Shown in pieces: positions 3,352 to 56,601 of a stretch of 64,000 nucleotides of DNA. Made by a program: the position numbers and the translations under genes. Numbering within the stretch: the first letter of the stretch is position 1; each line of letters starts with the position of its first letter. The stretch is from the NCBI RefSeq assembly GCF_032268605.1, contig NZ_CP130318.1, positions 1,832,001 to 1,896,000 of the forward strand. Reading direction: 5' to 3'. The notes under the pieces are model-generated. The model did not search any database, was not told the DNA's origin, and worked only from the letters and a program-made list of their open reading frames with translations. This DNA is from Paenibacillus aurantius. GTDB taxonomy: Bacteria > Bacillota > Bacilli > Paenibacillales > NBRC-103111.

Positions 3352-3380
3352 TCGTAATGGATAAGTCCCTTTAAAAAGAC

Positions 3381-5663: not shown

Positions 5664-5687
5664 TTTCATGCATCCTAATCAAAAATT

Positions 5688-5720: not shown

Positions 5721-5735
5721 AAGGTGGGGGAGCCA

Positions 5736-7847: not shown

Positions 7848-7880
7848 CGGATCGGCAATCCTGAAAGAGGAGAATATATT

Positions 7881-9338: not shown

Positions 9339-9427
9339 ATCCGTCCGATCCTCCGGAAAATCTGGGCGAGGACGATCTTGCCACATACGGCGCATACCGT
9401 GTATTCGACGACAGCCGGACACCGTGA
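9251..9427 (+). pseudogene. Orphan C-terminal fragment of an unrecognised protein
   Basis: In the +2 frame relative to the DUF4091 gene, a stretch beginning QWLSDTRFEKVHQRY and ending [13 protein letters not shown] runs to a TGA at 9425-9427. Its composition looks like a real protein tail (balanced, charged, aromatic). It overlaps the last 30 or so codons of the DUF4091 frame, as expected if a deletion joined two genes. I do not recognise the parent protein. Confidence 0.4.
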
Positions 9428-27236: not shown

Positions 27237-27239
27237 TAA

Positions 27240-28844: not shown

Positions 28845-28889
28845 AATGGAAAGTCAAATATTTGGAATCACCGAAAGACGAACCTTTTT

Positions 28890-28895
28890 TATAAT
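28890..28895 (+). promoter_or_regulatory. Candidate activated -10 box for the arabinose-polymer operon
   Basis: TATAAT lies 64 bp upstream of the binding-protein gene with no recognisable -35 box at 16-18 bp. This fits dependence on the YesN-type activator encoded just upstream. Confidence 0.4.
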
Positions 28896-28958
28896 GAAGG
28901 CAACCGACAGAAAACGCTTACTTTCTGGTGGGGTCCAATCGAACGGAGGAACAGGTAA

Positions 28959-30536: not shown

Positions 30537-30563
30537 GACCCCATGATGGTTGGAGGTTTATAG

Positions 30564-31514: not shown

Positions 31515-31528
31515 GGAGGGGCCATGCG

Positions 31529-32422: not shown

Positions 32423-32442
32423 CGGAAGGAAGGTTTGTGCAT

Positions 32443-34458: not shown

Positions 34459-34469
34459 AGGATACCTAC

Positions 34470-36848
34470 ATGATGGAGAGGATAAGGCAAATCAAGAAAA
34501 TTTGGATCTCTGTCGCGGCTGCTTGTCTTTTGGTCCCGGCGATTGTGCTTGGCTCCCTGCATCCGACAGAAGGGAAGGGGACGGCGAACCGAATGGCGAT
34601 CACCCTGAGTCAAACGTATCAAAATCCGTTCGTGCTGGACCAGGAATGGGAGGATTACGGCGTTGGGGATCCTTACCTTCTTCGCTATGACGGCCGCTAT
34701 TATCTTTACTGCAGCACGAAGGACGGGAGAGTCGGGGTGAAAGCGTGGAGCTCCGATGATCTTGTGAACTGGCGCTATGAAGGCTTGGTGACCGAGGACC
34801 CCGTCAGTACAGGTGCTTATGCACCGGAGGTCGTCTATTGGAACGGGCTGTTCTATATGTACACTTCCCCTGCAGGCAAAGGGCATTATGTCCTGCAGAG
34901 CGACAAACCGGCGGGACCGTTCGTGAAGAAGACGGACAACCTTGGCCTTACCATCGACGGCTCCGTCTTTATCGACGACGACGGGAAATGGTATTTCACC
35001 CATGCCAAGTTCGGAGGCATTATGGCGAGCCCGATGGCCGACCCGTTTACCATCGGACCGGACAAGCCGTTGAACGCCTCCCTTGGGCACTGGACGGAAG
35101 GCTCCATGATCATCAAGCGGAACGGACGTTATTTCATCACCTATACGGGCAATCACGTCTTTAGCGCGGGGTACCGTGTCAACTATGGGGTAAACCGCGA
35201 ATCTCCGATTGGTACGTATGCCATACCGGAGAACAACCCGATCCTTCTTTCCACTGCAAAAGATTTTAACGGGCTTGGCCACAGTGCGACCGTTATGGGA
35301 CCGGATTTGGATTCTTATTATATCGTTTACCATAACCTTATCGGCCGTTCCGCAGAAGGGCCTCCCGTTCGAAGGCTGAACCTGGACCGGCTTGTCTTCA
35401 ACGGCGATAAGATGTCCGTTCTCGGGCCGACGCACGGTGCGCCGCAGGAAGCGCCCCGGCTGCCGGATTTCCGGGATGTGCCGGGTACAGCCCCATCCGA
35501 AGACAAGTGGGAGCGCCTGGTTCAAGCCGGGGGAAGCGAGGCTTTGTTGACCCGAATGGATGTGGGCAGCCGGTATACCGGCGAATATAACTTTCGATTC
35601 GAAGATCGGAAGGAGGATGCCGCGACGTCTTCCCTGGAAGCCATATTCGCCTACGGGGATTCAGGGAATTACCGGGCGGCCCGTGTGGACGAGGAAAAGA
35701 ACGAGCTGACGCTGATCGATTACACGAGCGGCAGGGAGACGGTGGCGGCCAAGAAGACGCTGCCGGAGGACACCGACCTGACGAAGCTCCATACGATCCG
35801 GATCGAGTCGGACGGTACCGGCACGAAGCTGTTCTGGGACGGGCTGCTTCAGCTCGAGCAAGCATCCATGGCCGCGAAACCCGGCCGCATGGGCTATCGC
35901 TGGCCTCAAGGGGCGAAGCCGGATTTGCATTACACGGCCTTTTCCAATGAAGCGGGGGGCAGCAGCGATCAGAAAGCGCTCAAACCGCTGCCCGGGTCAA
36001 TGGAAGCCTTACACGGCGTTCAGGAGGGCCATCCAAGCGTCCGCTCGGGCCTTACACCAGACGGCAGCGATGCCGTCGTTCTCTCGAGCAAGGGGGACGG
36101 TCTCTCTTTTCCAGTGAACGTTCGCCAAGAGGGCCCTTATCTGGTGTCCGTCAACGTTTCCAAAGCCTCGAAGGGCTCGACGCTCGTATTAGAAGCGAAC
36201 GGAAGGGAGAAGGAAATCAAGCTGGATCCCTCCTTATTCGCAGACGATGCCGACTGGACGAAAATACCGCTGGGCGAGGTTGAGCTGAAGAAAGGGACCC
36301 AGTGGCTGTCGCTGCGCCGGGGGAAGGGAGACATTTCCCTTCGGTACGTGGAAGCGGGTCTGACGGTGCCGGTGCCGGAGCAGTCGGTCATTAAGCCGTC
36401 AGCAGTCGGCTTGGTCAATCGGTTCGGCGGCGATTCCGGCTGGGCGGATTATACCGTCAGCTTCGATCTGACACGGAAAGAAGCGACGACGGACGAGATC
36501 GGGGTTCTGCTGCGGACCTCCAACGAGTCGGAATTCAAGGATCAGGTCAAAGAAGCCTACATGGGCTACTCGCTGGTGTTTCAAGACGGGAAGGCCGTTC
36601 TGTCGCGAGTGAGCTATGAGAATGTTGCCGAAAAGGCATCCGCACCCCTTGCCTTCGCGTCCGGGCAGACCCGGCGGATTACAGTAAAACTAAGGGGTAC
36701 GACGATTGCGGTTTACGCAGATGGCAGTGGCGAGCCCCTCTTGAGATGGACGGACCCGAACGCATTTCTGCTCGGCCGTGTAGGCCTTAGAGGGGTATCG
36801 ACGGCTTGGATCGTCTCACCATTGACGGTAACGGGCAATCAAAAATAA
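34470..36848 (+). CDS. Secreted GH43-family arabinan/xylan-type hydrolase with C-terminal beta domains
   Basis: Exported multi-domain enzyme, 792 aa. A signal peptide (to about residue 36) is followed by a GH43 five-blade propeller with the expected triad regions: Asp in YGVGDPYLL, the pKa-modulating Asp in TIDGSVFIDDDG and the Glu in HWTEGSMI. GH43 enzymes cleave alpha-L-arabinofuranosyl or beta-xylosyl bonds by inversion. Residues about 340-490 and 640-790 look like LamG/concanavalin-like sandwiches, with a CBM6-like segment between. AAAGGA precedes ATG 34470, 12 bp after the GH51 stop. It shares its propeller type with the enzyme at 38657. Exact linkage specificity is not readable. Confidence 0.88.
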   Translation: MMERIRQIKKIWISVAAACLLVPAIVLGSLHPTEGKGTANRMAITLSQTYQNPFVLDQEWEDYGVGDPYLLRYDGRYYLYCSTKDGRVGVKAWSSDDLVNWRYEGLVTEDPVSTGAYAPEVVYWNGLFYMYTSPAGKGHYVLQSDKPAGPFVKKTDNLGLTIDGSVFIDDDGKWYFTHAKFGGIMASPMADPFTIGPDKPLNASLGHWTEGSMIIKRNGRYFITYTGNHVFSAGYRVNYGVNRESPIGTYAIPENNPILLSTAKDFNGLGHSATVMGPDLDSYYIVYHNLIGRSAEGPPVRRLNLDRLVFNGDKMSVLGPTHGAPQEAPRLPDFRDVPGTAPSEDKWERLVQAGGSEALLTRMDVGSRYTGEYNFRFEDRKEDAATSSLEAIFAYGDSGNYRAARVDEEKNELTLIDYTSGRETVAAKKTLPEDTDLTKLHTIRIESDGTGTKLFWDGLLQLEQASMAAKPGRMGYRWPQGAKPDLHYTAFSNEAGGSSDQKALKPLPGSMEALHGVQEGHPSVRSGLTPDGSDAVVLSSKGDGLSFPVNVRQEGPYLVSVNVSKASKGSTLVLEANGREKEIKLDPSLFADDADWTKIPLGEVELKKGTQWLSLRRGKGDISLRYVEAGLTVPVPEQSVIKPSAVGLVNRFGGDSGWADYTVSFDLTRKEATTDEIGVLLRTSNESEFKDQVKEAYMGYSLVFQDGKAVLSRVSYENVAEKASAPLAFASGQTRRITVKLRGTTIAVYADGSGEPLLRWTDPNAFLLGRVGLRGVSTAWIVSPLTVTGNQK

Positions 36849-36873
36849 CGGGAATCTAGGAGCGAAGGACGCT

Positions 36874-38637
36874 ATGACGACGAAGAAATATATTAAAAAT
36901 TATCCGAGACCCCAGTTCGTGAGAGAAAACTGGGTCGATTTGAACGGCGAGTGGCGCTTCGGCTTTGACGATGAAGACGCAGGGGAGGCCAATGGGTGGC
37001 ACCGGAGCTTCGGAGGAGACCGCCAAATCCTTGTTCCTTTTACTTATGAAACGAAGGCGAGCGGCATTGGGGAGGAGGCTCACCATCCTTGCGTTTGGTA
37101 CAACCGAACGCTGGACCTTCCGGCGGAAGCTGCCGGCAAACGAATTCTCCTGCATTTTCAAGCGGTGGATTATATCGCGACCGTATGGGTCAACGGCGAA
37201 TACGTCGGAAGGCATCAAGGCGGGTACGCGGCATTTTCATTCGACATTGCCCCTTACGTGACGGCGGGGTCCGCGAATGAGCTGACGGTTAAGGTTGAAG
37301 ACAGCAAGGATGCTACCCAGCCGCGTGGCAAACAGCGCTGGGTGGACGATAACTTCGAATGCTTCTATGTGCAGACGACGGGCATTTGGCAGTCGGTTTG
37401 GCTGGAATACGTAGACCAGGAATACGTGGATTCGGTAAAAATCACGCCGGATGTAGACGCCTCCTCCGTTCGATTCGAGTACCAGGTGAATGGCGATGTG
37501 CACGCGGACAGCAAGCTTCGACTGGAAGCGATTATTACGATGAAGGGACGGCAGGTCAAACAGGCAAGCCTGACGATCGACCGCCCCTGGCTTATGCTCG
37601 AGGTCGACCTCGTTCACGAGATGAACGGGCCTTGGAAGCGCTGCTACTGGGCCCCGGGCCGTCCGAATTTGTACGATGTGGAATTTATCCTGTACCGGGA
37701 CGACGTTGCGATTGATCATGTCTACTCTTATTTCGGCATGAGAAAAATATCGATCGAGAAGGGCAAAGTGCTCCTGAACAATGTACCGGTCTATCAACGA
37801 ATGCTCCTGGATCAAGGCTACTGGCCGGAAAGCCATTTAACGCCGCCTTCCGAGGAAGCGTTGATCGAGGATATCGATCTGCTTCTGCAGATGGGGTATA
37901 ACGGGGTGCGCAAGCACATGAAGATTGAGGATGCCCGGTTCTTGTATTGGTGCGATGTGAAGGGAGTGCTTGTCTGGTCCGAGATGGCGGCCACCTACGA
38001 ATTTAACGACAAGGCGGTGCAGCAATTCACCGAAGAATGGATGGAAATCGTTCGCCAGCAGTATAACCATCCGTCCATTATCACTTGGGTTCCTTTCAAT
38101 GAATCCTGGGGCATCGCGAATATTTTCAAAGACCGCCGGCAGCAGAAATTCACCGAAGCGATCTATCACCTCACCAAGGCGTTTGATCCGAACCGGCCGG
38201 TGATAACGAATGACGGTTGGGAGCATACCGTGTCCGATATCTTGACGCTGCATGATTATGTGGAAACGAAGGAACAATTCCTTAAGCGCTATGCCAATAA
38301 GGACGAAATCGTGAACAACGAGAAGACGTTCAACCAATGGAAATATGCCTTCGCCGACGGCTACGGCTACAAGGGACAGCCGATTATCGTGAGCGAATTC
38401 GGCGGCATCGCTTTCCAGTCCGACAAAGGCTGGGGATACGGCGGTCAGGTCGCTTCAGAGGAAGCGTTCCTGGAAAGATTCCGCGGCATTCACGAAGCGA
38501 TTAAGCAGACGGGGTATATCGTAGGATACTGCTACACCCAGATTACCGACGTTCAGCAAGAGGTGAACGGGCTGTTGACCGAGGAGCGGAAGCCAAAGGT
38601 GCCGCTGGAGAAGATCAGGGAAATCAATCTATCCTGA
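36874..38637 (+). CDS. GH2-family glycosidase (beta-galactosidase/arabinosidase-like)
   Basis: Cytoplasmic retaining glycosidase, 587 aa. The jelly-roll domain (about 20-185) includes VWVNGEYVGRHQGGYAAFSFDI, an immunoglobulin-like domain follows (about 186-280), then the TIM barrel with acid/base Glu about 410 in PFNESWG and nucleophile Glu about 508 in VSEFGG. It is much shorter than LacZ and lacks its C-terminal domains, resembling small GH2 enzymes of plant-polymer loci. Activities in such enzymes include beta-galactosidase, beta-glucuronidase and arabinopyranosidase, and the sequence alone does not choose. GGAGCGAAGG lies before the ATG. The gene lies 25 bp after the GH43 gene in the same operon. 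Confidence 0.9.
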   Translation: MTTKKYIKNYPRPQFVRENWVDLNGEWRFGFDDEDAGEANGWHRSFGGDRQILVPFTYETKASGIGEEAHHPCVWYNRTLDLPAEAAGKRILLHFQAVDYIATVWVNGEYVGRHQGGYAAFSFDIAPYVTAGSANELTVKVEDSKDATQPRGKQRWVDDNFECFYVQTTGIWQSVWLEYVDQEYVDSVKITPDVDASSVRFEYQVNGDVHADSKLRLEAIITMKGRQVKQASLTIDRPWLMLEVDLVHEMNGPWKRCYWAPGRPNLYDVEFILYRDDVAIDHVYSYFGMRKISIEKGKVLLNNVPVYQRMLLDQGYWPESHLTPPSEEALIEDIDLLLQMGYNGVRKHMKIEDARFLYWCDVKGVLVWSEMAATYEFNDKAVQQFTEEWMEIVRQQYNHPSIITWVPFNESWGIANIFKDRRQQKFTEAIYHLTKAFDPNRPVITNDGWEHTVSDILTLHDYVETKEQFLKRYANKDEIVNNEKTFNQWKYAFADGYGYKGQPIIVSEFGGIAFQSDKGWGYGGQVASEEAFLERFRGIHEAIKQTGYIVGYCYTQITDVQQEVNGLLTEERKPKVPLEKIREINLS

Positions 38638-38656
38638 GAAAGGAGCTGAATTCGAT

Positions 38657-41600
38657 TTGAGAAAGTGGATGATGGGGCTGCTCGCTGCTGTCTTGATCAC
38701 AACTTTTCCTGCAACAGGATTCTCTTACAGCAATCCGCAAGTCGTCACGGACTCTTGGTACTGGAATAACGGTACCTTTTATGGGGAAGGCGACCCGTTT
38801 ATCTTGAAATTTAACGGAGTCTACTATTTATATACCAGTACCGTGGACGATAAGCCCGGTGTGAAGGTATGGTCGTCGGAGGATTTGGTGCACTGGGAGT
38901 ATCGCGGTCTGTGTGCAACCGAGCCCGTTACAAAAGGAGCTTATGCTCCGGAGGTGGTTTACTGGAACGGGGATTTCTACATGTACACGGCTCTTCTTCA
39001 AGATGACGGCTCAACGCCGAGGGGCCATCGGGTGCTGAAGAGCTCCAGTCCTACAGGGCCCTTCACGGCCCAGACCGGCAGTAAGGTTACCGGCATTGAC
39101 GGACATGTGTTCATCGACGATGACGGCCAGTGGTACTTCTACAGTACGGGCAATGGCAATATCGATGCCCGCCCGATGTCCGACCCCTATACATTCGGGG
39201 CGAAATCCAATACGGGAGCGGCCATGAAGGGCTGGACGGAAGGGCCGACGGTCATCAAACGCAATGGAAAGTACTATATGACGTATACCGGGAATCACGT
39301 ATGGAGCGATGCCTACCGGGTGGATTATGCGAGCAGCACGAATCCGGTTTCCGGGTTCGTGCCGGCGGCCTCCCAGAATCCGATATTGCTCGATACGGAA
39401 GGGGATCATGTCGGTCTGGGGCACAATTCCATCGTTCGCGGTCCCGATCTGGATTCCGATTATATCGTCTATCACAGCCATGCCGATCCGGGACGGAATT
39501 TGAACCTGGACCGGATCGTATGGAACGGGGACAAGATGGCCTTGCTCGGCCCTACAACATCCGAACAGCCCGATCCGGCCATGCCTGATTTCAGCGACCG
39601 GTTCCAGAGAAAGGAATTAGGTAAGGATTGGAAAGTAGTGAGCGGAGGCAGCTGGGGAATCGGGGATGGTCATTCGCTGTACCAGAACGCATGGGGGGAA
39701 CCGGGCTCTCCGTCTCATGTCCTTCTTTCCGGGAAGCAGACGGACGACAGCTTCACAGCGGAGTTCAACCTGAAGCAGGTGGAGCAGGGAACAAGCGGCG
39801 ATCCGCTGATGGGAGCGGTATTCTCCTATAGGGATGAGAACAATTACGGGACTGCTGTTCTGAACCGCAATCAAAATCGCCTGGAGTCGGTATTCCGTGT
39901 CGATGGCAAAGATACCGTCCGGGAAACGACTCCTCTTCCGGAAGGGTATGATTATACGAAATGGCATCAAATCCGCGTGGAGAAGGAAGGCTCCGATTAT
40001 CGCATCTATGTGGATGGCATGCTGAAGCAGACCCGTTCCGTTGAACGGCTCGGCAAAGGCGGGATCGGCTATTCCACAACCGATGTACAGGCGGAATTCG
40101 GTTATACCGCTTTCAGCAACAAAGTGGGCGGCAGCAGCGCTAAAGACGCCTACAAGCCGATCCCCGGTGAGATTCAGGCCGTTCACTTCAACTCGAAGGG
40201 AAAAGGCAAGTCCGAGCGCGATGCCGGATGGATCCGCAAGGTTAAGGATCCGGAAGGCGGGTATGATGTCGCATCGCTCGATACGGGTAACTTGGCATAC
40301 AACGTCAATGTGTCCGAAGCGGGGACCTATGATGTTGTGATCCGGTACGCTGCGGCGGCCGATGCCGGTCTGAAGCTGGAGCTGGATGAATCGACCGGGC
40401 TGACGGACATGGTGCGGCTCCCTTCGACAGGCGGAACGGACCAATGGAACAACCTGGTGCTGAAGGATATTCAGCTTCCGCAAGGGCTGCATAAGCTTAA
40501 AGTGATTTCCGGCCAAGGATCTTTGGATTTGGCAACTCTTAAGTTCAGCCTTTCCGTCGCAACGGCTGCCCTTTCCGATGATTTCGATGACGGCGACGAC
40601 GCGGGCTGGAAGAAATTCGAACAGGGCTGGCGGGTCGATACGGGGGAAACACCTCCGTTTGATCTTCCGAAACCGGTTCCGGGGATCATTGAAGCGCCTT
40701 TCTATAATACGGGCGGTGAAGGGATCGGCTACCATGATAACACGGCGGAAAACATAGGGGGCGCATACCGGAGCGATTCCGTCGATATTCGGACGAACAC
40801 CAATTTCAACGGGCTTAACGTCGGTTGGAATCAGGCCGGCGAATGGCTCAACTACAACATTGACGTGAAGCGTGCAGGAACGTACCGGGTCGAAGTTACG
40901 GCGGCGACAACGTTCAGCGGCAATGGGGCACGGATCTGGCTGGACGGCCAAACGGATTTGACCGGTGTGATCCCTATTCCGGCTACCGGAGGATGGAACA
41001 ATTGGCAAACCACGCTGTCCCCCAGCTTCCAACTGCCGGAAGGCCGGCATACGATTACCTTTGAAACAGCGAAGGGAGAATATGACTTCGCAAGATTGAA
41101 GTTCGTCTCGTTCGATGCACCTAAACCCGTTCCCGGAATGGTCGAAGCCGTTCACTATAACCCAGGAGGCGAAGGAGTCGGTTACCATGACATTACGGCC
41201 TCAAATATCGGCGGCCAATACCGGAATGATGGGGTGGACATACGCGTTAATCCGAAGGGCGGCTGGAATGTCGGCTGGAACCAGACCGGCGAGTGGCTGA
41301 AGTATAACGTAAACGTGGACAAGTCCGCTGCATACAACGTGAGCGTCAGGATCGCAACGGCCCTTAGCGGAGGGAAAATTCGGTTATGGCTGGATGATAC
41401 GACAGACTTGACCGGTGTCGTTGACATTCCCAATACCGGAGGGTGGAATAACTGGAGAAACGTTGATCTTGGTGACATAACGCTGCCGGAAGGCGACCAT
41501 ACCGTCAAGGTGGAAATCGTTAACGGGGAATACGATTTCGCCGGTCTCTCCTTCCGGCCGTCCGATGAACCGATCCAGCTGCCCGGCACCGTACATGCCG

Positions 41601-42514
41601 TGGATTACAGGAATGGAGGAGAAGGAGTTGCGTACCATGACAATACACCGGATAACATTCGGGGTCTGTACCGCTCCGATGACGTCGATATCCGTTTGCT
41701 GCCGGAAGGATTTACGACAGGGTGGAACCAGACCGGCGAATGGCTGAAGTACGATGTCAACATCGCCGATGCCGGTACCTATAAGCTGGATTTGCGAGTG
41801 GCAACGGGCATGGACGGCGGCAAGGTCAGATTTTGGCTTGATGAGGTAACCGACCTTGCCGGGATTGTCGATATTCCGAATACCGGCGGTTTTCAGGAGT
41901 GGAGGACGATAACGAAGGACGGGATCGCCCTTCCGGCAGGCCGCCACACCATTAAGGCGGAAATCGTAACCGGCGAGTTCGATTTTTACAGCTTCCGTTT
42001 TCACAACGACCCCGACCTGCCCAAACAGGGCGTCTATAAATCCGGGGCCAAAGGGTATCCGAAATCGATTATCGGCGACAGCAGGTGGTCGGACTACATC
42101 GTGGAGGCGGATATCCAATTAGGCTCCCTTACGCAGGGAGGGGGCAATGCGGGCATCCTTCTCCGGGTCAACAATCCGGCCGACGGAACGGAATGGGGGC
42201 AGAACAGAGACGACTTTCTACAAGGTTACGCTGCCTATCTGACTTCGGACGGTGTGCATCTCGGCAAATACAATTATAACTTCCAGTACTTGACCGGAAC
42301 GCCGTTAACCGGAACGGCCGGGGAGTGGCAGCATATGAAGGTAGTGGCGAGAGGCACTCTTATCCAGGTCTATGTGGGGGACATGGATTCCCCGCTTATA
42401 GAGTACACGGATCAGAGCGGGACGGCATTTACTCATGGCAGCGTCGGCGTAAGGAGCTTCAATAGTGAGAGCTCAATCGATCATTTCACCGTGAAGCCGA
42501 TTCCGGCAGAATAA
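38657..42514 (+). CDS. Giant secreted GH43 enzyme with three CBM6-like modules
   Basis: Exported enzyme of 1285 aa. A signal peptide (to about 23) precedes a GH43 propeller (about 25-310) with YGEGDPFIL, GIDGHVFIDDDG and GWTEGPTV carrying the three catalytic carboxylates. A LamG-like domain spans about 315-490 and a further beta module about 500-635. Three tandem CBM6-like modules follow at about 670-820, 822-968 and 970-1118, each with GEGVGYHD-type and WNQTGEWLKY-type motifs, then a C-terminal LamG-like domain. The repeated carbohydrate-binding modules suggest attachment to insoluble polysaccharide. TTG 38657 follows AAAGGAGCTGAATTC. The first ATG is four codons later. It is the last gene of the operon, closed by a bidirectional terminator. 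Confidence 0.9.
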   Translation: MRKWMMGLLAAVLITTFPATGFSYSNPQVVTDSWYWNNGTFYGEGDPFILKFNGVYYLYTSTVDDKPGVKVWSSEDLVHWEYRGLCATEPVTKGAYAPEVVYWNGDFYMYTALLQDDGSTPRGHRVLKSSSPTGPFTAQTGSKVTGIDGHVFIDDDGQWYFYSTGNGNIDARPMSDPYTFGAKSNTGAAMKGWTEGPTVIKRNGKYYMTYTGNHVWSDAYRVDYASSTNPVSGFVPAASQNPILLDTEGDHVGLGHNSIVRGPDLDSDYIVYHSHADPGRNLNLDRIVWNGDKMALLGPTTSEQPDPAMPDFSDRFQRKELGKDWKVVSGGSWGIGDGHSLYQNAWGEPGSPSHVLLSGKQTDDSFTAEFNLKQVEQGTSGDPLMGAVFSYRDENNYGTAVLNRNQNRLESVFRVDGKDTVRETTPLPEGYDYTKWHQIRVEKEGSDYRIYVDGMLKQTRSVERLGKGGIGYSTTDVQAEFGYTAFSNKVGGSSAKDAYKPIPGEIQAVHFNSKGKGKSERDAGWIRKVKDPEGGYDVASLDTGNLAYNVNVSEAGTYDVVIRYAAAADAGLKLELDESTGLTDMVRLPSTGGTDQWNNLVLKDIQLPQGLHKLKVISGQGSLDLATLKFSLSVATAALSDDFDDGDDAGWKKFEQGWRVDTGETPPFDLPKPVPGIIEAPFYNTGGEGIGYHDNTAENIGGAYRSDSVDIRTNTNFNGLNVGWNQAGEWLNYNIDVKRAGTYRVEVTAATTFSGNGARIWLDGQTDLTGVIPIPATGGWNNWQTTLSPSFQLPEGRHTITFETAKGEYDFARLKFVSFDAPKPVPGMVEAVHYNPGGEGVGYHDITASNIGGQYRNDGVDIRVNPKGGWNVGWNQTGEWLKYNVNVDKSAAYNVSVRIATALSGGKIRLWLDDTTDLTGVVDIPNTGGWNNWRNVDLGDITLPEGDHTVKVEIVNGEYDFAGLSFRPSDEPIQLPGTVHAVDYRNGGEGVAYHDNTPDNIRGLYRSDDVDIRLLPEGFTTGWNQTGEWLKYDVNIADAGTYKLDLRVATGMDGGKVRFWLDEVTDLAGIVDIPNTGGFQEWRTITKDGIALPAGRHTIKAEIVTGEFDFYSFRFHNDPDLPKQGVYKSGAKGYPKSIIGDSRWSDYIVEADIQLGSLTQGGGNAGILLRVNNPADGTEWGQNRDDFLQGYAAYLTSDGVHLGKYNYNFQYLTGTPLTGTAGEWQHMKVVARGTLIQVYVGDMDSPLIEYTDQSGTAFTHGSVGVRSFNSESSIDHFTVKPIPAE
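40670..42006 (+). repeat. Three tandem CBM6-like coding repeats
   Basis: Units at roughly 40670-41110, 41122-41558 and 41571-42006 encode related modules of about 145 residues. Each shares a GEG(I/V)xYHD start, a GWNQ(A/T)GEWLxY centre, IP(A/N)TGG and a final (A/V)xGE(Y/F)DF. Units 2 and 3 share more motifs with each other than with unit 1, which has an insertion TNTNFNGLN. Confidence 0.8.
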
Positions 42515-42516
42515 CG

Positions 42517-42569
42517 AAAAATCACCTTCTTTTTGGGGCCTTTCCGGCACAGAAGAAGGTGATTTTTTT
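42517..42569. terminator. Bidirectional terminator between convergent genes
   Basis: AAAAATCACCTTCTT (42517-42531) is the exact complement of 42553-42567. A-runs and T-runs on both outer sides serve the GH43 gene from the left and the sulfatase gene from the right. Confidence 0.88.
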
Positions 42570-42642
42570 GTTTAGGTCCGCCTGAGATTATTCGTGCGTT
42601 TGGTCGCCGAAAGGATAAAGGGGTCCGTACTTGTCCATTACC

Positions 42643-44178
42643 CTACGCGTGATGAATTCGCGGCATGGGCAGCGGTTCTTTGCCAAGCTCCGCCCATACG
42701 TATTTGAGCAGCAGTTCGGACTTAAGGGAGGCGGATTCCGGGTCGTACCATAGATTGTGAAGCTCTCCTGGATCCTCCTGAAGATCAAAGATTTCTCCAT
42801 AGCTCTGATTGTAATAAACGGTAATTTTGTACCTCTCGTCGACGTAGGTTTTCTGGTGGATGGTGGTGGGCTCGTGACGGAACTCGCAGATGGCATGATC
42901 CCTAGCTTTTTCCTTACGGCCGAGCCACACATCCCGTTGGTCGATGCCTGTCATGGCGTGAGGAATGGGGATGCCGCAAAAGGATAAGAACGTGGGGGCC
43001 AGATCAACCAGCGATTGCATGGCCTCCGACACATGGCCGGCCGGTACCTGCCCCGGGTATTTCACAATAAAGGGGAGCTTGATTAAATCCTCATAGTGAA
43101 AACCTCCCTTGGCCTGCAATCCATGCTGTCCAAAGAAGTGGCCGTGGTCGGTGGTAAAGACGACGATCGTGTTTTCCGAAAGCCCGAGCTCGTCCAGCTT
43201 GTCGAGGATTTTTCCGATGTATTTGTCCATCAGGCTGATCATGCCGTAGTAAACGGCTACCAGCTTCTTTTTGTCATAGTCCGTCAATCTGAACTTGGTC
43301 CCGTACTCATAATAGTGATGGGAACGATAGCCATGAATACCGAACCCCGTCTCGGCCAGGTCGCTGAAATCCGGATGGTCTTCCTGGGTTTTACGGAAAT
43401 GCGGGGGGTTCTGATCATGCTCTCCGGGAACCATTTGGGGAATCGTGAGGGCTTCCGGATCGTACATGGTGTCCCATGGTTCAGGCACTAAATACTCGGG
43501 ATGGGGATCAAAGAAGCTGGCCCACATGAAAAAGGGATCTCCCGATTCCTTGTAATCCGTCAAGAGAGCATTCGTACGTTCCGCAATCCAGGTGTTATAG
43601 TGATACTCCTCCGGAATCGGCCACTTGTACGTGATCGAACGATCCATCGTCCCGGTAGGCGGCAGGAAGTAGTCCCGCCAATTCGTACACCCTTTCTCTT
43701 CCAGCCACAGCGCATAATGCTGCCCGGCATGGGCTTCATTGGTATGGTTCCGTGCAAGCTCCACGTGGTCGAATCCATAAAACGGTCCGTTAAACGTTTT
43801 CCAGTAGTCCAAGTCCTGCATAATCGGATAGGCTTCGATAGACGGGTATTCGTCTGTCGATTTCAACGGCTGAAAATGGGCTTTTCCGACCAGAGCCGTG
43901 CGGTATCCGGCAGCTTGTAAGTCTTCTCCTACGGTGTGTCTGTCTTCCAGCAGCTTGGTGCCTAAGGTCCAAGCCCCGTGCTGGCTCGGATACATTCCCG
44001 TAATGATGGAAGCCCTGCTGGGGGTACAGGTCGGATTCGGGCAATACGCCCGGGTGAAGGTAGTCCCTTCCTGCACCAAGCGGTCCAAATTAGGGGTGTG
44101 GACTTCCTTGTTAAAGGACCCGATGGTATTCCAATGCTGCTGATCGCTCGTTATTAGCAAAATGTTAGGTTTTTTCAT
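42643..44178 (-). CDS. Sulfatase (arylsulfatase superfamily, formylglycine type)
   Basis: Hydrolyses sulfate esters, 511 aa, with no signal peptide. The N-terminus has the metal site NILLITSDQQ (Asp about 12). The activation motif CTPSRASIITG has the Cys at about 51 that is converted to formylglycine. FTTDHGHFFGQHG carries later metal ligands, and the end has the usual DP.E..NL tail. The minus-strand ribosome site AGGAGG is 8 nt from a TTG (44181) and 11 nt from ATG 44178, and either could start. Members also include phosphonate hydrolases and choline-sulfatase-like enzymes. It converges on the arabinose-polymer operon, suggesting removal of sulfate from an imported sugar. No maturase gene is visible here. 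Confidence 0.9.
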   Translation of the reverse strand: MKKPNILLITSDQQHWNTIGSFNKEVHTPNLDRLVQEGTTFTRAYCPNPTCTPSRASIITGMYPSQHGAWTLGTKLLEDRHTVGEDLQAAGYRTALVGKAHFQPLKSTDEYPSIEAYPIMQDLDYWKTFNGPFYGFDHVELARNHTNEAHAGQHYALWLEEKGCTNWRDYFLPPTGTMDRSITYKWPIPEEYHYNTWIAERTNALLTDYKESGDPFFMWASFFDPHPEYLVPEPWDTMYDPEALTIPQMVPGEHDQNPPHFRKTQEDHPDFSDLAETGFGIHGYRSHHYYEYGTKFRLTDYDKKKLVAVYYGMISLMDKYIGKILDKLDELGLSENTIVVFTTDHGHFFGQHGLQAKGGFHYEDLIKLPFIVKYPGQVPAGHVSEAMQSLVDLAPTFLSFCGIPIPHAMTGIDQRDVWLGRKEKARDHAICEFRHEPTTIHQKTYVDERYKITVYYNQSYGEIFDLQEDPGELHNLWYDPESASLKSELLLKYVWAELGKEPLPMPRIHHA

Positions 44179-44264: not shown

Positions 44265-44309
44265 GTTTTGGGTGATCTTTGAAGAGAAGACGGTCAAGGG
44301 GGAACGGCT

Positions 44310-44444
44310 ATGCTTCAGGAATAGGACCATGAATACGCAGAGTTTATCTATTACATGCCGGGGGATATAGATAAGGAAAGTCAATTATGGCCGGTCCGCG
44401 CGGGCCGGAATATAGCGAAAGCCATGGTATTGCAGATTTTGTAA
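44310..44444 (+). pseudogene. N-terminal relic of an AraC-family regulator
   Basis: ATG 44310 follows a good site, AAGGGGGAACGGCT. The frame reads four codons, a TAG (44322-44324), then HEYAEFIYYMPGDIDKES and QLWPVRAGRNIAKA before TAA at 44442-44444. The tyrosine-rich opening and the SQLWPVRAGRNIAK segment match the start of the cupin domain of AraC-type regulators common in Paenibacillus. The rest of the gene, including both helix-turn-helices, is missing. It was divergent from the sulfatase and may have controlled it. The remainder of 44445-44560 holds no clear gene. Confidence 0.65.
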
Positions 44445-44740: not shown

Positions 44741-47700
44741 ATGAGGAGAATTGGTTTGGTTTCCGTGTCCCTAGCGGTACTGCTCGTCATGATGCTGACC
44801 CATATCGCCTATGCGGATGTATCATCCCATTATCTTAACCCGCTGATGAAAGGAGCCGACCCCACCATTGAACGGCAAGACGATGGGTACTATTATTCGG
44901 CGGCAGGCGATGGCAATGTTGTATTGAAACAGCATGAAACCATTCTTGGTGTTTCCACCGCGAAGAGTAAAGAGGTATGGAAGTTACCTGAAAACCTGGA
45001 ATTTATATGGGGGCCCGATGCGCACAGGATCGATGGCAAATGGTACATCTACTTCGCTTCCGGTCCGAAGATTAGTGATAAAGCGGGGCGCTTTGCTTAT
45101 GGCCATCCCAGCTCCTATGTTCTGGAGAACAGCTCGCCAGATCCATTTGAAGGGACCTGGGAACTGAAGGGAACATATGATAATGGAGACGGACTTACAC
45201 CCCAACAGGGGTTGCTGAATACGCAAAGCTATGGACTGCCTACCGGCTTTGTCACCATCCATGGGCAGAGATACCTTACCTACACCAAATATTTCTATTT
45301 TATAGATCCAAAAACGGGAAAAGAGAGATTTGATGAATGTCCCACGATTGTCAAAATGAAAAACCCGTGGACATTGGAAGGCGAAGAGATTACGTTAGCC
45401 AGGCCGACATACGACTGGGAGAAGTATGTTGATAATGTTAATGAAGGCGCAGCCGTGGTGGAGCGAAACGGAAAAGCGTATTTTGCCTATTCCGCCAGCA
45501 GCTACACGAGTGATAACTATGCTATCGGCCTGTCTTGGGCCGATCTGGACCAAAGTGTGGAGAATGAAGCGGCATGGAATAAACATCCCGAACCGATCAT
45601 GAAACGTTCGGATGAAAACAGTTCTTATTCGACAGGCTCGCCGTTATTCCTGAAATCCGAAGACGGGACAGAGGACTGGATTACATACCATGGCATACCC
45701 ACACATAGTCAAGGCGGCAAGAACAGAGAGGTTCGCGCCCAGCGGATCAATTGGGACGACAATGACTTCATCAATCTGGGCATCCCTTCCAACCCCGGCA
45801 CCGTGCTTAGCCGCCCCTCCGGGGAGGAGAAGAGCGAAATCTATGAAGCGGAATACGCGCAATTATCAGGGGCTGTAAGAGCAACCATGAACAGCATCTA
45901 TGCCTCGTCCGGCCGATATGTCCGGTACAGCAATAGCAATGACAGCGACTATGTAGAGTTTACAGTCAACACTAATGCAGGGGGGATTTACTCGCTGGAC
46001 TTCCGTTACAACAACAATACGACAGAACCGGTCAACATGACATTGGGCGTGAACCAGGAGGCTCCCACGGCGCTTGTATTTCCGTCTAATGCTGGACCGG
46101 AGAACAAGCTGAACTTCGACTTAAAAACCGTTCACAACATCCGGCTGAATGACGGCAGCAACATCGTACGTCTTTCCGGCAAAAGCGCTTTGGGGCTGGA
46201 TGCAATCATTGCCAAGAAAAGTGTCTTGTATGAAGCGGAGAGCGCAGAGTTGTCCGGCGGCACGGGAATTGCTCAAGATCATACGGGATATAGCGGTTCA
46301 GGCTTTGTCAGAGGGTTCACGAAGCCGAACGCGGCGATCAGCTTTACAGTAAACGCTCCTCACGCGGGCAGCTATTCGGTCAAGCTGGCTTATGGAGCTG
46401 GGACCGGGGAAGATCGAACTTTGTCCATGTATGTGAATGGCACCAAGATCAAACAAGTCAATTTCTTCGGTCTGAAGAAATGGGACAAGTGGGCCGATAG
46501 ATATGACAATGTATTCCTGAAGGAAGGAAGCAATGTCATCACCTATAAGCGTGACGGAGGCGATCCGGCGAATGTCAATCTGGACTATATCTCCGTTACC
46601 GAAGCGGCGACCTGGACGTATGAGGCGGAATCCGCCAAAACGACAGGTGGAGCGGATGCCAGGGTCGTTCAGGCTCAGCATGGAAATACGGGAATCGGTT
46701 ATGTGAGTGGTCTTTCCCAATTGAACTCGTCCGTGGAATTCTCTGTGGATATCGAGTATGCGGCTTCCTACGATCTCAAGCTGCGGTACGCCACAGAACA
46801 GGGCGGCAAAACATTGTCGCTGGAGGTGAATGGCACGCCTGTGCAGGACATGGTCTTTCCCTACTCCGGAGGTGTCAAGGTGTGGAAGGAACAGATTGTA
46901 ACCGTTCCCCTGAACAAAGGGAAAAACAGCATCACTTATAAGAATGCGGACGGAGATTCAGGTGTTATCCATATCGATCATATTCATCTGAATAAGCGCA
47001 CACCCTGGAAATATCAGGCAGAAGCAGCAACCCTCTCAGGCACGGTGGGCATCGGAAGAGACCGTCTATGGTTTGAAGGCAACGGTTATGTCGGATTATT
47101 CCAGAAAAAAGGGGATTCTATCGGGTTTGAGGTGAATGTCCCCTATACAGCGGCCTACACGTCAACCTTGCGCTATTCGGGTGTACAATCGTCGAATCGA
47201 ACCATGAGCATGTATGTGAACGGCAAACGGATCAAACAAGTTTCCTTGCCGCCGACAGAGAATTGGGATACCTGGACGGACGCGACCGAGACGGTCAATT
47301 TGGAAGCGGGGAAGAATAGTATTGAATTCCGCCGTGAGGAAGGGGATACCGGACAGCTCAATATAGACAGCCTGATCCTGGATAAATTCAGCGGAGGCTT
47401 CATCAGCACGAAGGCTAGGGAACTTACCCCCGAGAAGATGGTGAAAATCCAGCCGAAGCATAGCGGCAAGGCGCTGAGTGTGGCCGGTGAGAAGTTCAAT
47501 CAAGGAGCAGCCGTTATCCAATATTCCAATGGCGATACCAATAGTCAATTGGTGCGATTCCTGGATCTGGGGACAGGTTATTACCGGATCCTAGTTATGC
47601 GTGGCGCACGCTTCCTCGATATCAAGCCTGATTCAGATAGTCAAGAACTTATTCTAAATCAGACCATTGAAGCTGCCCCCACTCCCTCCGATACGGAACA

Positions 47701-48601
47701 GTGGCGTCTGGAAAAGGATGGCGATTATTACAAAGTGATCAACAAAAGCAACGGAAAGGTGATTACGGTCAATGAAGCATCCAAAGGAAACAACGCTGTT
47801 CTGCGGTTGGCTGATGACGAGGGGAAAGACAACCAGCGGTTTAAGATTGAGCTGCGCAACCTTTATGACACTACATTCCACGCGGTGTCGGACATTACTG
47901 CTGTCCCGGCGGCAGTGCAGGCAGGACAGAAGCTGACCCTCTTCGGAACAGTCTCACCGGATTGGGCTACGCGCAAGAGCATCACCTGGAGCATCAAGGA
48001 TGCCGGGCAAACAAGAGCCACCCTAGATGGGAATGTGCTGTCCGCGACAAGAGCGGGAACAGTCGTTGTCACCGCTACGATTGAAGAAGGAAGCGAGAAC
48101 GGCGTGAACTACTCCAAGGACTTCACAATTACTGTCTCCAAGAAGGACGCGGATGTTAATCCTGAAAAGGCCACCTATGATCTCTATGTTCCCGGGGGTG
48201 TAAGCGCCAGCATCATATGGAATGAAGCCAAGTCTGTGACCGGGGTGGTATACGCAGCAACAGTAAAAGGTGTCGTTTACAATGGCACATTGGGAACGGA
48301 TGGTTATACGGTCAGCGGAGATAAGTTGACCATCAAGCGCGAAACTATGGCCGCACTGGGGGTGAAGAGCGGTGATAAGGCGGACTTCTCTATCCTATTT
48401 AATCTTGGGAATCCGGCTGTGCTCAGTGTCAATGTGGTGGACAGCGTTGCTTTGACCAGCCATAGCATCACAGCGGCAACAGAGGGACACGGCACTGCTA
48501 TCGCCGATGTATCATCGGCGGTCAAGGATACGGCGATTGCCGTTCCAGCAGATAAGAAGGGCGAATTTGGCAACTCATCAGGGCTGAATGGCGGTGCTTA
48601 G
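44741..48601 (+). CDS. Giant secreted GH43 enzyme with CBM6/CBM35-like modules and ricin-type lectin
   Basis: Exported enzyme of 1286 aa. The signal peptide ends near IAYA (about 25). The GH43 propeller (about 27-365) has KGADPTIE, WGPDAHRIDG and VNEGAAVV near the expected catalytic carboxylates. Four CBM6/CBM35-like modules follow (about 370-500, 500-625, 625-755 and 755-885), each opening with a YEAE or YQAE motif and ending with a DYI or DHI type strand. A ricin-B-like lectin spans about 900-1040 (KVINKSNGKVITV, DNQRFKIE), then Ig-like domains. The C-terminus stops abruptly in a repeat of InlB-like type (ITAATEGHGTAIADVSSA), suggesting a truncated tail. TAAGGAGG precedes ATG 44741. It probably releases arabinofuranose from an insoluble polymer. 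Confidence 0.87.
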   Translation: MRRIGLVSVSLAVLLVMMLTHIAYADVSSHYLNPLMKGADPTIERQDDGYYYSAAGDGNVVLKQHETILGVSTAKSKEVWKLPENLEFIWGPDAHRIDGKWYIYFASGPKISDKAGRFAYGHPSSYVLENSSPDPFEGTWELKGTYDNGDGLTPQQGLLNTQSYGLPTGFVTIHGQRYLTYTKYFYFIDPKTGKERFDECPTIVKMKNPWTLEGEEITLARPTYDWEKYVDNVNEGAAVVERNGKAYFAYSASSYTSDNYAIGLSWADLDQSVENEAAWNKHPEPIMKRSDENSSYSTGSPLFLKSEDGTEDWITYHGIPTHSQGGKNREVRAQRINWDDNDFINLGIPSNPGTVLSRPSGEEKSEIYEAEYAQLSGAVRATMNSIYASSGRYVRYSNSNDSDYVEFTVNTNAGGIYSLDFRYNNNTTEPVNMTLGVNQEAPTALVFPSNAGPENKLNFDLKTVHNIRLNDGSNIVRLSGKSALGLDAIIAKKSVLYEAESAELSGGTGIAQDHTGYSGSGFVRGFTKPNAAISFTVNAPHAGSYSVKLAYGAGTGEDRTLSMYVNGTKIKQVNFFGLKKWDKWADRYDNVFLKEGSNVITYKRDGGDPANVNLDYISVTEAATWTYEAESAKTTGGADARVVQAQHGNTGIGYVSGLSQLNSSVEFSVDIEYAASYDLKLRYATEQGGKTLSLEVNGTPVQDMVFPYSGGVKVWKEQIVTVPLNKGKNSITYKNADGDSGVIHIDHIHLNKRTPWKYQAEAATLSGTVGIGRDRLWFEGNGYVGLFQKKGDSIGFEVNVPYTAAYTSTLRYSGVQSSNRTMSMYVNGKRIKQVSLPPTENWDTWTDATETVNLEAGKNSIEFRREEGDTGQLNIDSLILDKFSGGFISTKARELTPEKMVKIQPKHSGKALSVAGEKFNQGAAVIQYSNGDTNSQLVRFLDLGTGYYRILVMRGARFLDIKPDSDSQELILNQTIEAAPTPSDTEQWRLEKDGDYYKVINKSNGKVITVNEASKGNNAVLRLADDEGKDNQRFKIELRNLYDTTFHAVSDITAVPAAVQAGQKLTLFGTVSPDWATRKSITWSIKDAGQTRATLDGNVLSATRAGTVVVTATIEEGSENGVNYSKDFTITVSKKDADVNPEKATYDLYVPGGVSASIIWNEAKSVTGVVYAATVKGVVYNGTLGTDGYTVSGDKLTIKRETMAALGVKSGDKADFSILFNLGNPAVLSVNVVDSVALTSHSITAATEGHGTAIADVSSAVKDTAIAVPADKKGEFGNSSGLNGGA

Positions 48602-48693
48602 ACAGTTCGTTTCGCGGGGGAATCCTTTGGCTTCTCCAGGTGAACAGGAACGCCATAGACAACAGGATGATATGATTCCAAGGAGGATTGCAC

Positions 48694-51600
48694 ATGGTCA
48701 AAAAAAAATTCAGACATTATCTGCTTTGTCTCGCAGTACTGCTGATGCTGCCGCAATGGAGCGGAGTGGCTGCGGCGGCAGAGCCGATGTCAGCTAAGCC
48801 GGATTCGGCGTCTGAGCAGGAGGGAAAGAATGTGTCGGATTTCTACAATGTCATCATGCAGACAGGAGCCGATCCCTGGGTTTACAAGCACACGGACGGC
48901 TATTACTACAACGCATTTGCCAACTCCAGCGGCATCATGATCCGAAGAGCGAAGACCATCACCGGCATTGAGGCGGGGGAGAGGAGCCTGGCCTGGACAC
49001 CGGTTAAGGGCACCATGTACAGCTCCAATGTGTGGGCGCCGGAAATGCATTATCTCAAGGATACCGACGGCAAATCCAAATGGTTTATTTACTTTGCGGC
49101 TGACAACGGAACCAACGCAAATCACCGCATGTACGTGCTGGAGAACGCCAGTGAAAATCCGCTGACCGGCACCTGGGTGTTCAAAGGGAAGATTGCCGAT
49201 TCTACCGACCGTTGGGCGATCGATGGCACGGTGCTGACTGTAAATGAGAAGCACTATTTCATCTGGTCCGGTTGGGAAGAAACGGACGGGAGCTTCCAGA
49301 ATCTATATATTGCGCAGATGAGTGATCCGCGAACCATCAGCTCGGAACGGGTATTGCTCTCGACGTCTGAATATGATTGGGAATCGTCCCCGGCCAGAAT
49401 CAACGAAGGCCCCGAGGTTACGATCAAGGGCGACACGATCAATCTGATCTATTCCGCAAACGGAAGCTGGACAGACAGTTACTGTCTTGGGGTCATTACG
49501 GCCAAGATCGGCGACGATTTGATGAATCCCGGCTCCTGGGTGAAAAAAGACAGGCCGATCTTCTCCAGCGCCAATGGCGTTTACGGCCCGGGCCACCACA
49601 GCATCGTCACGTCCCCTGACGGTTCAGAGGACTGGATCATCTACCATGCCGCCCGCTGGCCGGGATCGGGATGGACCCGTAAAGTCCACACGCAGAAGTT
49701 CACGTGGAACGCAGACAATACGCCGAATCTGGGGGAGCCGGCCGATCCGAACACACCGATTGAAAGGCCTTCGGGCGAGCCGCTGCGGAAGCGCTATGAA
49801 GCGGAAAACGGGCTGCTGGTGAAGGATCCGAGCGGTGAAACTTCTCCCGCTGTCCGGATGGAAAGCACCGCTTCCGGCGGAATGAAGATCGCCAACATCA
49901 AGAACGCCAAAGATTATGCCCAGTTTACCGTAAACGTGCCGGAGACGGGATTTTATATGCTGTCCGTGCGCAATGCCAACGGATCACCCAATGCGGCCGA
50001 TGCCTCCCATATCTTGTCGGTCAACGGGAGCTCCGGCGCCAATTTGAACATTGTCTATTCCGGTACGAATCGTTGGGGGCTCTCCACGGCGAAAGTCTAT
50101 CTAAGGGAAGGTAACAATATTCTCCGCTTCTCAAAGGGGAACAACCTTGCCGAAATTGACAGCCTGGATCTATTTAAGCTGGATGCATCGGAAATGTTAT
50201 TCGATGCCCCGGGGTACACGTTGGGGCTCGGTGAAAGTCGCAGCTTGCCCCTGTATAACGTAACAGGCACTACCTATACCGCTGTTGACACAGGAGCCAT
50301 CTTCAGTTCTTCCGATACGAAGGTTGCCGTTATTGACGGTGGGGTTAGGGTTAAGGCTGTAAGTGCGGGCAGTACCACAATCACCGGGACATATAACGGG
50401 AAAACGGCTACAGCCACGGTTACCGTTGCAGCGGAGCTTAAAGCGGTGCAGGCCGTTGCCATCGGCGGCTTGCCAAGCATCCTGACTATCGGGCAGAAAA
50501 GCGGACCATTGCAGGTAACCGCACGTTATAACAATTATGAGATGCAGAATGTGACAGCGGCTGCCCAGTATACCAGCAGCGATCCTGGGGTGGCCAGGGT
50601 GGAATCGGATTCTGTGACCCAATCGGTGTATGCGATTAAACCGGGCACAGCTCTTATTACAGCCGAATACAACGGAAAGAAAGCTGCGTTCAGCTTGACC
50701 GTTATTGCAGCTTCCGATGCGGTTCAGGTTGCTTCCGTAGAGAAGATTCCTTCCGGAGTGGCTCCTAGGCAGCCCGGCGTTGTTGATGTTGTCTACAACA
50801 GTCAGTCGAAGAAGGCAGAGATTGTCAGCTGGGAGCCGGAGGGACTTGACTTCAGCTCCCTGGGCACTGTTCAGGTGCCTGTCACACTAAAGCTAGATGG
50901 CCACGATTTTCCTTCCACCGTTGCCGTAAATGTTATTCCGGGATGGGGCCTCGATGAGATTGTGAATCAACTCCGCAGCAAGCTGGCGAATTTCTCCTAT
51001 CCTTTGGGCGACGGGCTTGGCAACTATAGCCAATCCAAGTATGATGCGTTCGTGGCCGAAGTGAACAAGGCGGAAGAGATGGCTGTAAACGCCGATCTGA
51101 GCAAAGAGCAGTTTGACGAGGAGCTGGATAAGCTTGCTCAAGCGGAAGAAGCTTTATTAGGTTCGCTGAACAGCATTCAGAACGGCGTAATCTATAACGC
51201 TTACCGGGATTTCTCCGGCGATACGGTTGGCAAGTACCCTTATGGCATTACCACCGAGGATCTGACCAATGGCGCTACCGCCACGGTACAGGAAGAGGCC
51301 GGGAATAAATTCCTACGGCTGACCACAACCGCTACATCGGGCAAGGCAAACCTATTCCTGCCGTATGCAGGCGAGGTAAAGGCTGAGGCAGATCAGCGTA
51401 TCGTCATCGAATACCGCGCCAGACTAAACACTAGCTTCCAATACGCCAATAGCGCCATGGTGCGAAATGACAGCGGCACAGGCAATTATTCCATGGTTAC
51501 AGCCTTTGATACGGGGAAAATTATAGTCCAGAATGGACCATCCACCAAGGTCAAGGTCAAAGACTCTCAGTTAAATAAATGGTACAAAATCAAAATGGTG

Positions 51601-52966: not shown

Positions 52967-53923
52967 ATGAAAACAACGCCTGCCGCCGTAGGAACGGATA
53001 GAGCACCGGCAGCGAAAGAGGCTTTTTACCAGACAAAGCGGTTTCGGCAGAATATTCCGCTATTTGTCATGCTTATACCGGGAGTGCTTTATTATCTGAT
53101 ATTCCGCTACTTGCCTATGGGCGGTCTTGTGATTGCTTTCAAGAACTACAATTTTCGCGATGGCATATGGTCAAGTCCGTGGGTCGGCTTGAAGTATTTC
53201 GAGATTCTATTCCAGTCCAACGTCACGCTGCAAATTATCTGGAATACCCTTAACCTGAGCGTACTGAGCCTGATCTTCGGGTTCCCTGCGCCGATTATTA
53301 TTGCCATTGCCTTGAATGAGGTCCGGAAGAGCTGGCTGAAGCGCTGGATTCAAACCATTATTTATCTGCCTCATTTTTTGTCCTGGGTTATCGTTGCAGG
53401 CATTATCCTGACTCTGTTCTCCATTGACGGAGGCACCATCAACAAGCTGCTGGGCCAATGGGGGATGGAGCCTGTGCCTTTCCTGTACCGCTCGAACTCA
53501 TGGATCGCCATCTTTATCGGCTCCGGCATGTGGAAGGAGATGGGCTTCAGCGCTATTATCTATCTCGCCGCTATCTCCGGCATTGACCCCAGTCTGTACG
53601 AATCCGCAGGGATGGACGGCGCAGGCAAGCTTAGGCAGATTTGGCATATCACCCTGCCAGGCATCCGTCCTACGATTATCCTGCTGCTGATTCTTGGAAT
53701 GGGCCGTCTGATGGAGGTAGGATTTGACCAGGTTTACAATTTGCAGAATCCCACAGTCCTGCAGAAAGCGGAGGTCATCAGCACCTACGTGTACAAAGTG
53801 GGGCTGCAGCAGGCCCAGTTTGGCCTGACTACAGCCATGGGCTTGTTTGAATCCTTTGTCGGTCTGGTGCTTGTGCTGTCGGCTAATGCATTAGCCCGTA
53901 AATTCGATCAGGGCTTATTCTGA
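52967..53923 (+). CDS. Sugar ABC importer permease, LplB type (locus 6)
   Basis: Membrane subunit, 318 aa. A charged N-terminus is followed by six helices. FRYLPMGGLVIAFKNYNF near residue 45 and the EAA loop ESAGMDGAGKLRQIWHI are typical of LplB-like proteins. GGAAAGAAGGG precedes ATG 52967. It starts the importer section of locus 6 downstream of element B and is followed 19 bp later by the second permease. Confidence 0.95.
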   Translation: MKTTPAAVGTDRAPAAKEAFYQTKRFRQNIPLFVMLIPGVLYYLIFRYLPMGGLVIAFKNYNFRDGIWSSPWVGLKYFEILFQSNVTLQIIWNTLNLSVLSLIFGFPAPIIIAIALNEVRKSWLKRWIQTIIYLPHFLSWVIVAGIILTLFSIDGGTINKLLGQWGMEPVPFLYRSNSWIAIFIGSGMWKEMGFSAIIYLAAISGIDPSLYESAGMDGAGKLRQIWHITLPGIRPTIILLLILGMGRLMEVGFDQVYNLQNPTVLQKAEVISTYVYKVGLQQAQFGLTTAMGLFESFVGLVLVLSANALARKFDQGLF

Positions 53924-53942
53924 AGAAAGGAGGGAAATCCTC

Positions 53943-54815: not shown

Positions 54816-54859
54816 CGGCAACAAGGAAATGTATCATAGATTGATGAGGGGGATTCCAC

Positions 54860-56500: not shown

Positions 56501-56601
56501 GGGCTGAAGGGCCTGGAATAGGATAAATGCGGACTTGGTTCGGCAAAGGCCGGGCCAAGTTTGCTTTCGGAACATTTTATATGAGGAGGAGTATAGGAAT
56601 C

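Follow-up and report, generated by a model that had tools for sequence, protein, structure and literature searches.

A predicted cytoplasmic sulfatase associated with a divergent GH51 glycoside hydrolase in Paenibacillus and its relatives

The polysaccharides of land plants are usually regarded as unsulfated, and the enzymes of family GH51 are furanosidases. For a sulfatase gene that keeps company with a GH51 gene, the closest functional precedent is BpS1_8 of Bacteroides plebeius, a sulfatase reported to act on the sulfated AGP of wine and to be pivotal in the use of both wine and Codium AGP, in a study that gives evidence for the sulfation of wine AGP, a land-plant AGP, and presents it as an exception for land plants (PMC8406133). 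As described there, BpS1_8 is an S1_8 enzyme linked to an arabinogalactan locus that acts after import; it is predicted to be periplasmic, has a signal peptide and is accompanied by a SusC/D-type system (PMC8406133). The sulfated arabinans of the Bryopsidales and Cladophorales are reported to be mainly pyranosic beta-L-arabinans, with sulfation at C-2 or C-3 described for some algal 5-linked alpha-Araf (PMC7550628). The sulfatase considered here resembles BpS1_8 in its linkage to a glycan locus and in a predicted role after import, and is unlike it in having no signal peptide, in standing beside an ABC/two-component system and in belonging to the Paenibacillales. As a whole, the module appears to be a variation on Gram-positive glycan loci that are already known; a search of open-licence papers returned no earlier description of a sulfatase-GH51 module.

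The window, by which we mean the whole stretch of 64,000 nucleotides that was analysed, occupies C1:1832001-1896000 of a one-contig genome of 6.30 Mb. Its central operon lies on the plus strand (25476-42514) and opens with a histidine kinase with HAMP and cache-like domains (HK, 25476-27236) and a response regulator with an AraC-type HTH (RR, 27240-28844). A lipoprotein-like solute-binding protein of 525 aa (SBP, 28959-30536) and two ABC permeases (30564-31514 and 31508-32422) follow, and behind them the divergent GH51 without a signal peptide that proved to be the conserved partner of the sulfatase (32437-34458), a GH43 of 792 aa with a hydrophobic N-terminal segment (34470-36848), a GH2 of 587 aa without a signal peptide (36874-38637) and a second GH43 of 1285 aa with a signal-peptide-like start and CBM6/35 repeats (38657-42514). 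The sulfatase gene (42643-44178, minus strand, 511 aa) does converge on this GH51/GH43/GH2 operon, as a preliminary description had claimed, and because the two face each other across a terminator-like hairpin (42512-42580; MFE -26.6, z -4.92) the sulfatase is probably a transcription unit of its own. From 44741 onward there is a second cluster, so that the sulfatase is flanked by glycan clusters on both sides; it comprises, on the plus strand, a GH43 with CBM35 and ricin-type domains (44741-48601), a GH43 with Big_2 domains (48688-52647), a second ABC importer of two permeases and an SBP (52967-56500) and a GH88 family protein (56527-57717), together with an HK/RR pair, and the membership of these genes in the sulfatase locus is uncertain. 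The GH43s and SBPs of the window carry hydrophobic N-terminal segments whereas GH51, GH2 and the sulfatase have no leader, which suggests a division of labour in which GH43 would work outside the cell and, after import, GH51, GH2 and the sulfatase would work within it.

The sulfatase starts with an ATG at 44178, with a TTG one codon further upstream. PF00884 covers residues 5-403 (E 2.1e-50, 172 bits against a cut-off of 25), SGSH_C is the second Pfam domain (E 7.6e-24), and the formylglycine (FGly) motif reads C51-T-P-S-R55. In an alignment of 49 of the 81 available sequences (those of 80 related loci and the window), D12, Q13, C51, R55, K99, H101, H226, D344, H345 and K357 are identical in all 49 rows, the window's included; we take them to be the metal ligands, the nucleophile and the sulfate-binding residues of S1 sulfatases. 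Every row has the C-x-P-S/T-R motif, with S54 replaced by T in seven. Domain, motif and catalytic residues place the protein in the formylglycine S1 type, and hydrolysis of sulfate esters is predicted. No hydrophobic N-terminus was found in the window protein, where the Kyte-Doolittle maximum for 12-residue stretches is 0.05; the same maximum does not exceed 0.32 across the 49 rows, whereas the SBPs and GH43s of the window reach 1.9-2.8. Since no hydrophobic leader is seen and the first beta strand of the AlphaFold model already starts at residue 5, a cytoplasmic location is likely. On the intact CTPSR motif and on the missing signal peptide, the preliminary description thus holds.

Its suggestion that a maturase gene might be sought elsewhere in the genome was also borne out: an aerobic FGE (PF03781, 305 bits) is encoded at C1:2181344-2182186, by which the window sulfatase could, on this prediction, be matured aerobically. 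The FGE gene is convergent with another sulfatase match about 1.5 kb off, with a 300-aa open frame between the two. A profile search with TIGR03942 (E <= 0.001) found no anaerobic maturase in this genome. Ten of the 80 related loci include a relative of the radical-SAM sulfatase maturases, and the sole one of the ten that was examined, in L028, exceeds the TIGR03942 cut-off (409 against 349 bits). Further sulfatases are found in the same genome. A cluster at C1:5403829-5416536 combines five PF00884 matches, one of them a 68% paralogue of the window sulfatase, with an ABC permease, and another sulfatase at C1:1824576, about 6 kb before the window (L096:9552-10979 in the locus set, where the five-match cluster is L097), has as neighbours a GH38, a piece of GH31, an ABC permease and a transglutaminase-like protein. 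G001, another genome of this species, has the sulfatase in two pieces of 97% identity (C1:3786370-3787819), of which one contains a stop, and there the paralogue likewise matches only in part; assembly error is possible.

The GH51 partner has the catalytic machinery of its family in an unfamiliar setting. Its motifs W-E-I-G-N-E and T-E-Y-N align to the acid/base and nucleophile regions of arabinofuranosidases, regions that it has in common with the Thermotoga maritima enzyme 3ug3 and with AbfA (1pz3), and E333 and E452, aligned to 3ug3 and presumably the catalytic Glu pair, are invariant in all rows of an alignment of 26 of the 39 available sequences. Its aligned core, however, begins some 140-155 residues further along than those of 3ug3, 2c7f and 1pz3, the first motif of the clade is GHFVEDIRDHM, and the neighbourhood of the sugar site is altered relative to AbfA (NGWLGGCIRVGD), with an invariant Asp499 aligned to a Gln of AbfA that we assume to be a sugar-site residue. 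The NCBIfam ArfA cut-off is missed (214 against 625). By its sequence, the protein belongs to a distinct, divergent GH51 clade, for which arabinofuranosidase is the likeliest activity and action on a beta-D-galactofuranoside or another furanoside a possible one; in view of this divergence, arabinofuranose itself is a sugar that we infer.

The reading we prefer, at a probability of roughly 0.5, is that a sulfated, probably arabinofuranose-bearing oligosaccharide is imported and, once in the cytoplasm, loses its sulfate to the sulfatase and is cleaved by GH51. Secreted GH43 enzymes would trim a polymer outside the cell, the two-component system would sense a product of this trimming, and the SBP and both permeases, powered by a shared ATPase encoded elsewhere, would import a sulfated oligosaccharide that probably contains arabinofuranose. 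Inside the cell, the FGE-matured sulfatase would strip off the sulfate and GH51, here with GH2, would free the sugars. What the sequences contribute to this scheme is the fold family, the catalytic residues, the lack of an export signal, the gene order, the conserved linkage and the co-occurrence; we infer the order of the steps and a single molecule, sulfated and arabinofuranosylated, on which both enzymes would act. With 25 PF00884 matches in the genome, other sulfatases could desulfate too. As GH51 is a furanosidase family, the classical pyranosic algal arabinan should not be its natural target. The sulfated green-algal arabinan that had been proposed as a target is accordingly a weak candidate, given that the known ones are mostly pyranosic and that this GH51 is divergent. 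The substrate we would choose, at about even odds, is a sulfated oligosaccharide with furanose residues, whether arabinogalactan-like or of another kind, because of the furanosidase family, the BpS1_8 precedent and the species names among the 80 relatives; these include rhizosphaerae, solanacearum, tritici and oralis, several of which are related to soil or plants, going by the names alone.

Conservation of the pairing was followed through related loci, defined as the best 80 of 385 sulfatase relatives in reference genomes; they are 78-90% identical to the window sulfatase, and most are from Paenibacillus or Cohnella, a few being from Bacillus-type genomes. At thresholds of our choosing (at least 45% identity, within 10 kb of the sulfatase), 38 of the 80 contain a relative of the window GH51, and they show at least four arrangements; in 37 of these it aligns over 488-674 residues, many being cut by the edge of the locus. 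The other partner genes of these loci were likewise scored by identity thresholds that we set. Just a 161-residue GH51 piece is left in the remaining one, L062, where fragments of GH51, ABC permease and HK lie beside the sulfatase (L062:7183 onward) and the usual operon has seemingly decayed. The other 42 loci have no GH51 within 10 kb, seven of them being cut by contig ends. Most often the genes run GH51-ABC2-ABC1-SBP-RR-HK-AraC-sulfatase, the last of them being divergent; the sulfatase directly adjoins GH51 in L017 and L073, is separated from it by an AraC gene and a GH2 in L042, L059 and L063, and in L018, as in the window, by the GH43s and GH2. When loci of up to 21 kb without a GH51 match are left out, the state of linkage changes at least 11 times on a quick sulfatase tree, an approximate count since 27 of its 79 inner branches are unresolved, and this is more than one arrangement passed down. 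Absence of the sulfatase from orthologous loci had been set beforehand as a test of the association; in the event, many of these loci contain a linked sulfatase. The association with the GH51 locus, as judged from gene content and order, is real and wider than the preliminary description had envisaged. A tblastn search of phages returned 35 records, all below 60% identity.

The two genes also keep company at the level of whole genomes. Among 80 genomes of the family, the sulfatase was found in 44 (E <= 1e-220) and GH51 in 27 (E <= 1e-150), and all 27 are among the 44. The sulfatase is thus present in 27/27 GH51-positive genomes against 17/53 GH51-negative ones (Fisher P 8e-10, uncorrected for phylogeny); the association has a P of 3e-5 in genomes of at least 7 Mb and a within-genus product of 8e-5, and neither figure corrects fully for kinship. 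In a set of 119 genomes from the order, 35 have the sulfatase and 22 have GH51, and again all 22 GH51-positive genomes have the sulfatase. Thirteen of these 22 are shared with the family set; the nine from outside the family all have the sulfatase, within 8.3 kb of GH51 in eight and 153 kb off in one. Physical linkage is looser than co-occurrence: the genes lie within 25 kb of one another in 10 of the 27 GH51-positive family genomes and beyond that in 17, many on different contigs, and in two one-contig genomes (G047 and G050) they are megabases apart, so the partnership outlasts the loss of linkage. At the thresholds used, 17 of the 44 sulfatase-positive family genomes are without GH51, which makes the dependence one of GH51 on the sulfatase and not the reverse. 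Together with the loci without GH51, these genomes indicate that the sulfatase is also used without its partner. The window's GH36 was tried as a co-occurrence control and was uninformative, being found in one of the 80 family genomes, its own (E <= 1e-150).

This use without GH51 bears on the foremost rival explanation, a tentative but real possibility, in which the substrate of the sulfatase is a small sulfated solute (some sulfated monosaccharide or another small sulfate ester), the importer varies and GH51 provides one route of supply among others, perhaps by freeing a sugar that bears sulfate. The neighbours of the sulfatase lend it some weight. In the Bacillus-type loci L071, L055 and L086, a sodium:solute symporter (SSF, PF00474, identified in L071 and assigned in the other two by the same protein cluster) stands between the AraC gene and the sulfatase in place of the ABC/GH51 operon, and in L016 and, by the same protein cluster, L019, an MFS transporter lies beside the AraC gene. 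A symporter adjoining the sulfatase would be more apt for a small solute than for an oligosaccharide, and these neighbours suggest that the substrate is small in some lineages. Yet ABC importers with a large SBP, which we take to be typical of oligosaccharides, are the most common kind, and the complete absence of GH51-positive genomes without the sulfatase (0/27 and 0/22 at the thresholds used) also favours import of a sulfated oligosaccharide followed by cytoplasmic desulfation and GH51 cleavage.

The AraC-type regulator (AraC_binding and HTH) of these loci is itself a regular companion, present at 25% identity or more in 71 of the 80 and near the sulfatase in 67. In the window, positions 44301-44420 (plus strand) encode 40 residues with 72.5% identity to residues 17-56 of the AraC protein of L016, in the same divergent position; the similarity ends there, and nothing more of the gene is left before the GH43 cluster that begins at 44741. 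The window lineage has therefore lost this regulator, and its sulfatase may have lost the mode of regulation of its relatives, so that its control may differ from theirs.

That the enzyme is a phosphonate- or phosphodiester-type, or a promiscuous, member of the FGly superfamily and no carbohydrate sulfatase appears improbable. Its support is structural: on a middling AlphaFold model (pLDDT 77, pTM 0.86), Foldseek ranks phosphonate monoester hydrolases and SpAS1/SpAS2, both dimeric sulfatases, as the nearest folds (2vqr, 2w8s, 4upi and 4upl, at 24-27% identity), with the D-Q and D-H pattern of the window sulfatase found also in 4upl. The VIA Z-scores of 2w8s (28.9) and of the S1_7 ulvan sulfatase (28.4) are tied, and host-glycan sulfatases are level with them. 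Neither phmmer nor a profile search found a close solved relative. The top phmmer match among solved structures is the carrageenan sulfatase Bt3731_S1_30A (9ihk, 155 bits, Foldseek rank 11), and BT1918_S1_46 (7oz8) stands at VIA rank 4; both share the K-x-H and D-H motifs with the window sulfatase in alignment, but they are 23-24% identical to it and differ in glycan context, 9ihk has D-E where the window has D-Q, and both PDB sequences have Ser aligned to C51. Against a phosphonate-type enzyme stand the invariant sulfatase pair K99 and H101, at whose positions the phosphonate monoester hydrolases carry Tyr/Thr, and the conserved glycan context; we know of no glycan locus for the phosphonate monoester hydrolases or for SpAS1/SpAS2. 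Placement with choline-sulfate or phosphonate enzymes, which had been named earlier as the outcome that would speak against a glycan role, is disfavoured by the NCBIfam profiles, with scores far below the cut-offs for choline sulfatase (TIGR03417, 185 against 433 bits) and PehA (NF045661, 188 against 900), while the folds leave phosphonate monoester hydrolases and sulfatases tied. Still less probable is an origin of the linkage in CAZyme-rich genomes with drifting clusters and no functional tie between sulfatase and GH51: the GH88 control does co-occur with the sulfatase (16 of 18 GH88-positive genomes, P 0.001) and the 17 unlinked genomes would fit, but the GH88 effect is gone among GH51-negative genomes (P 1, with only three GH88-positive), the GH51 effect persists among GH88-negative ones (P 1.4e-5), and physical adjacency recurs in several orientations.

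A GH51 clade that, in either of two overlapping genome sets, never turned up without the sulfatase would suggest a widespread, non-marine, sulfated, furanose-bearing substrate, and the sulfatase-GH51 pair would be a defined gene pair by which to trace it. The fullest version of this idea, which we consider rather unlikely, is an undescribed cytoplasmic route throughout the Paenibacillales for a sulfated arabinofuranose glycan of land plants or soil, with GH51 strictly dependent on the sulfatase; some lineages would add, next to it, a chromate-type sulfate exporter and a dedicated anaerobic maturase.

Chromate is a sulfate analogue, which is the reason for considering export of sulfate at all. 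A pair of short chromate-type transporter genes occurs in 27 of the 80 related loci (among them L020:11639-12819, where PF02417 was identified, L033, L032, L042, L059 and L052) and within 6.5 kb of the sulfatase in 24. It is found in several orientations, and on the sulfatase tree its presence changes at least five times. PF02417 is common in the family, in at least 78 of 80 genomes and with up to 11 per genome among the matches listed, so some adjacency to the sulfatase is to be expected; judged informally from the fetched loci, the pair seems to lie near the sulfatase more often than random placement would predict. That it exports the sulfate freed in the cell is our guess by analogy, and its recurrent neighbourhood offers a testable disposal route for intracellular sulfate. 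The genome of the window has three chromate-type loci, two of which (C1:4532805-4533964 and C1:5385096-5386177) lie about 6 kb and about 18 kb from other sulfatase matches.

The GH88 of the second cluster is matched at 90-97% identity in several other genera, many of the matches having internal stops, for which decay, start-site misreading or recent transfer are possible explanations. At the opposite end of the window, a further glycan cluster occupies positions 1-9340; its genes include ABC permease-like ones and those for a DUF3502 protein, a GH78-like protein, the GH36 and a GH123.
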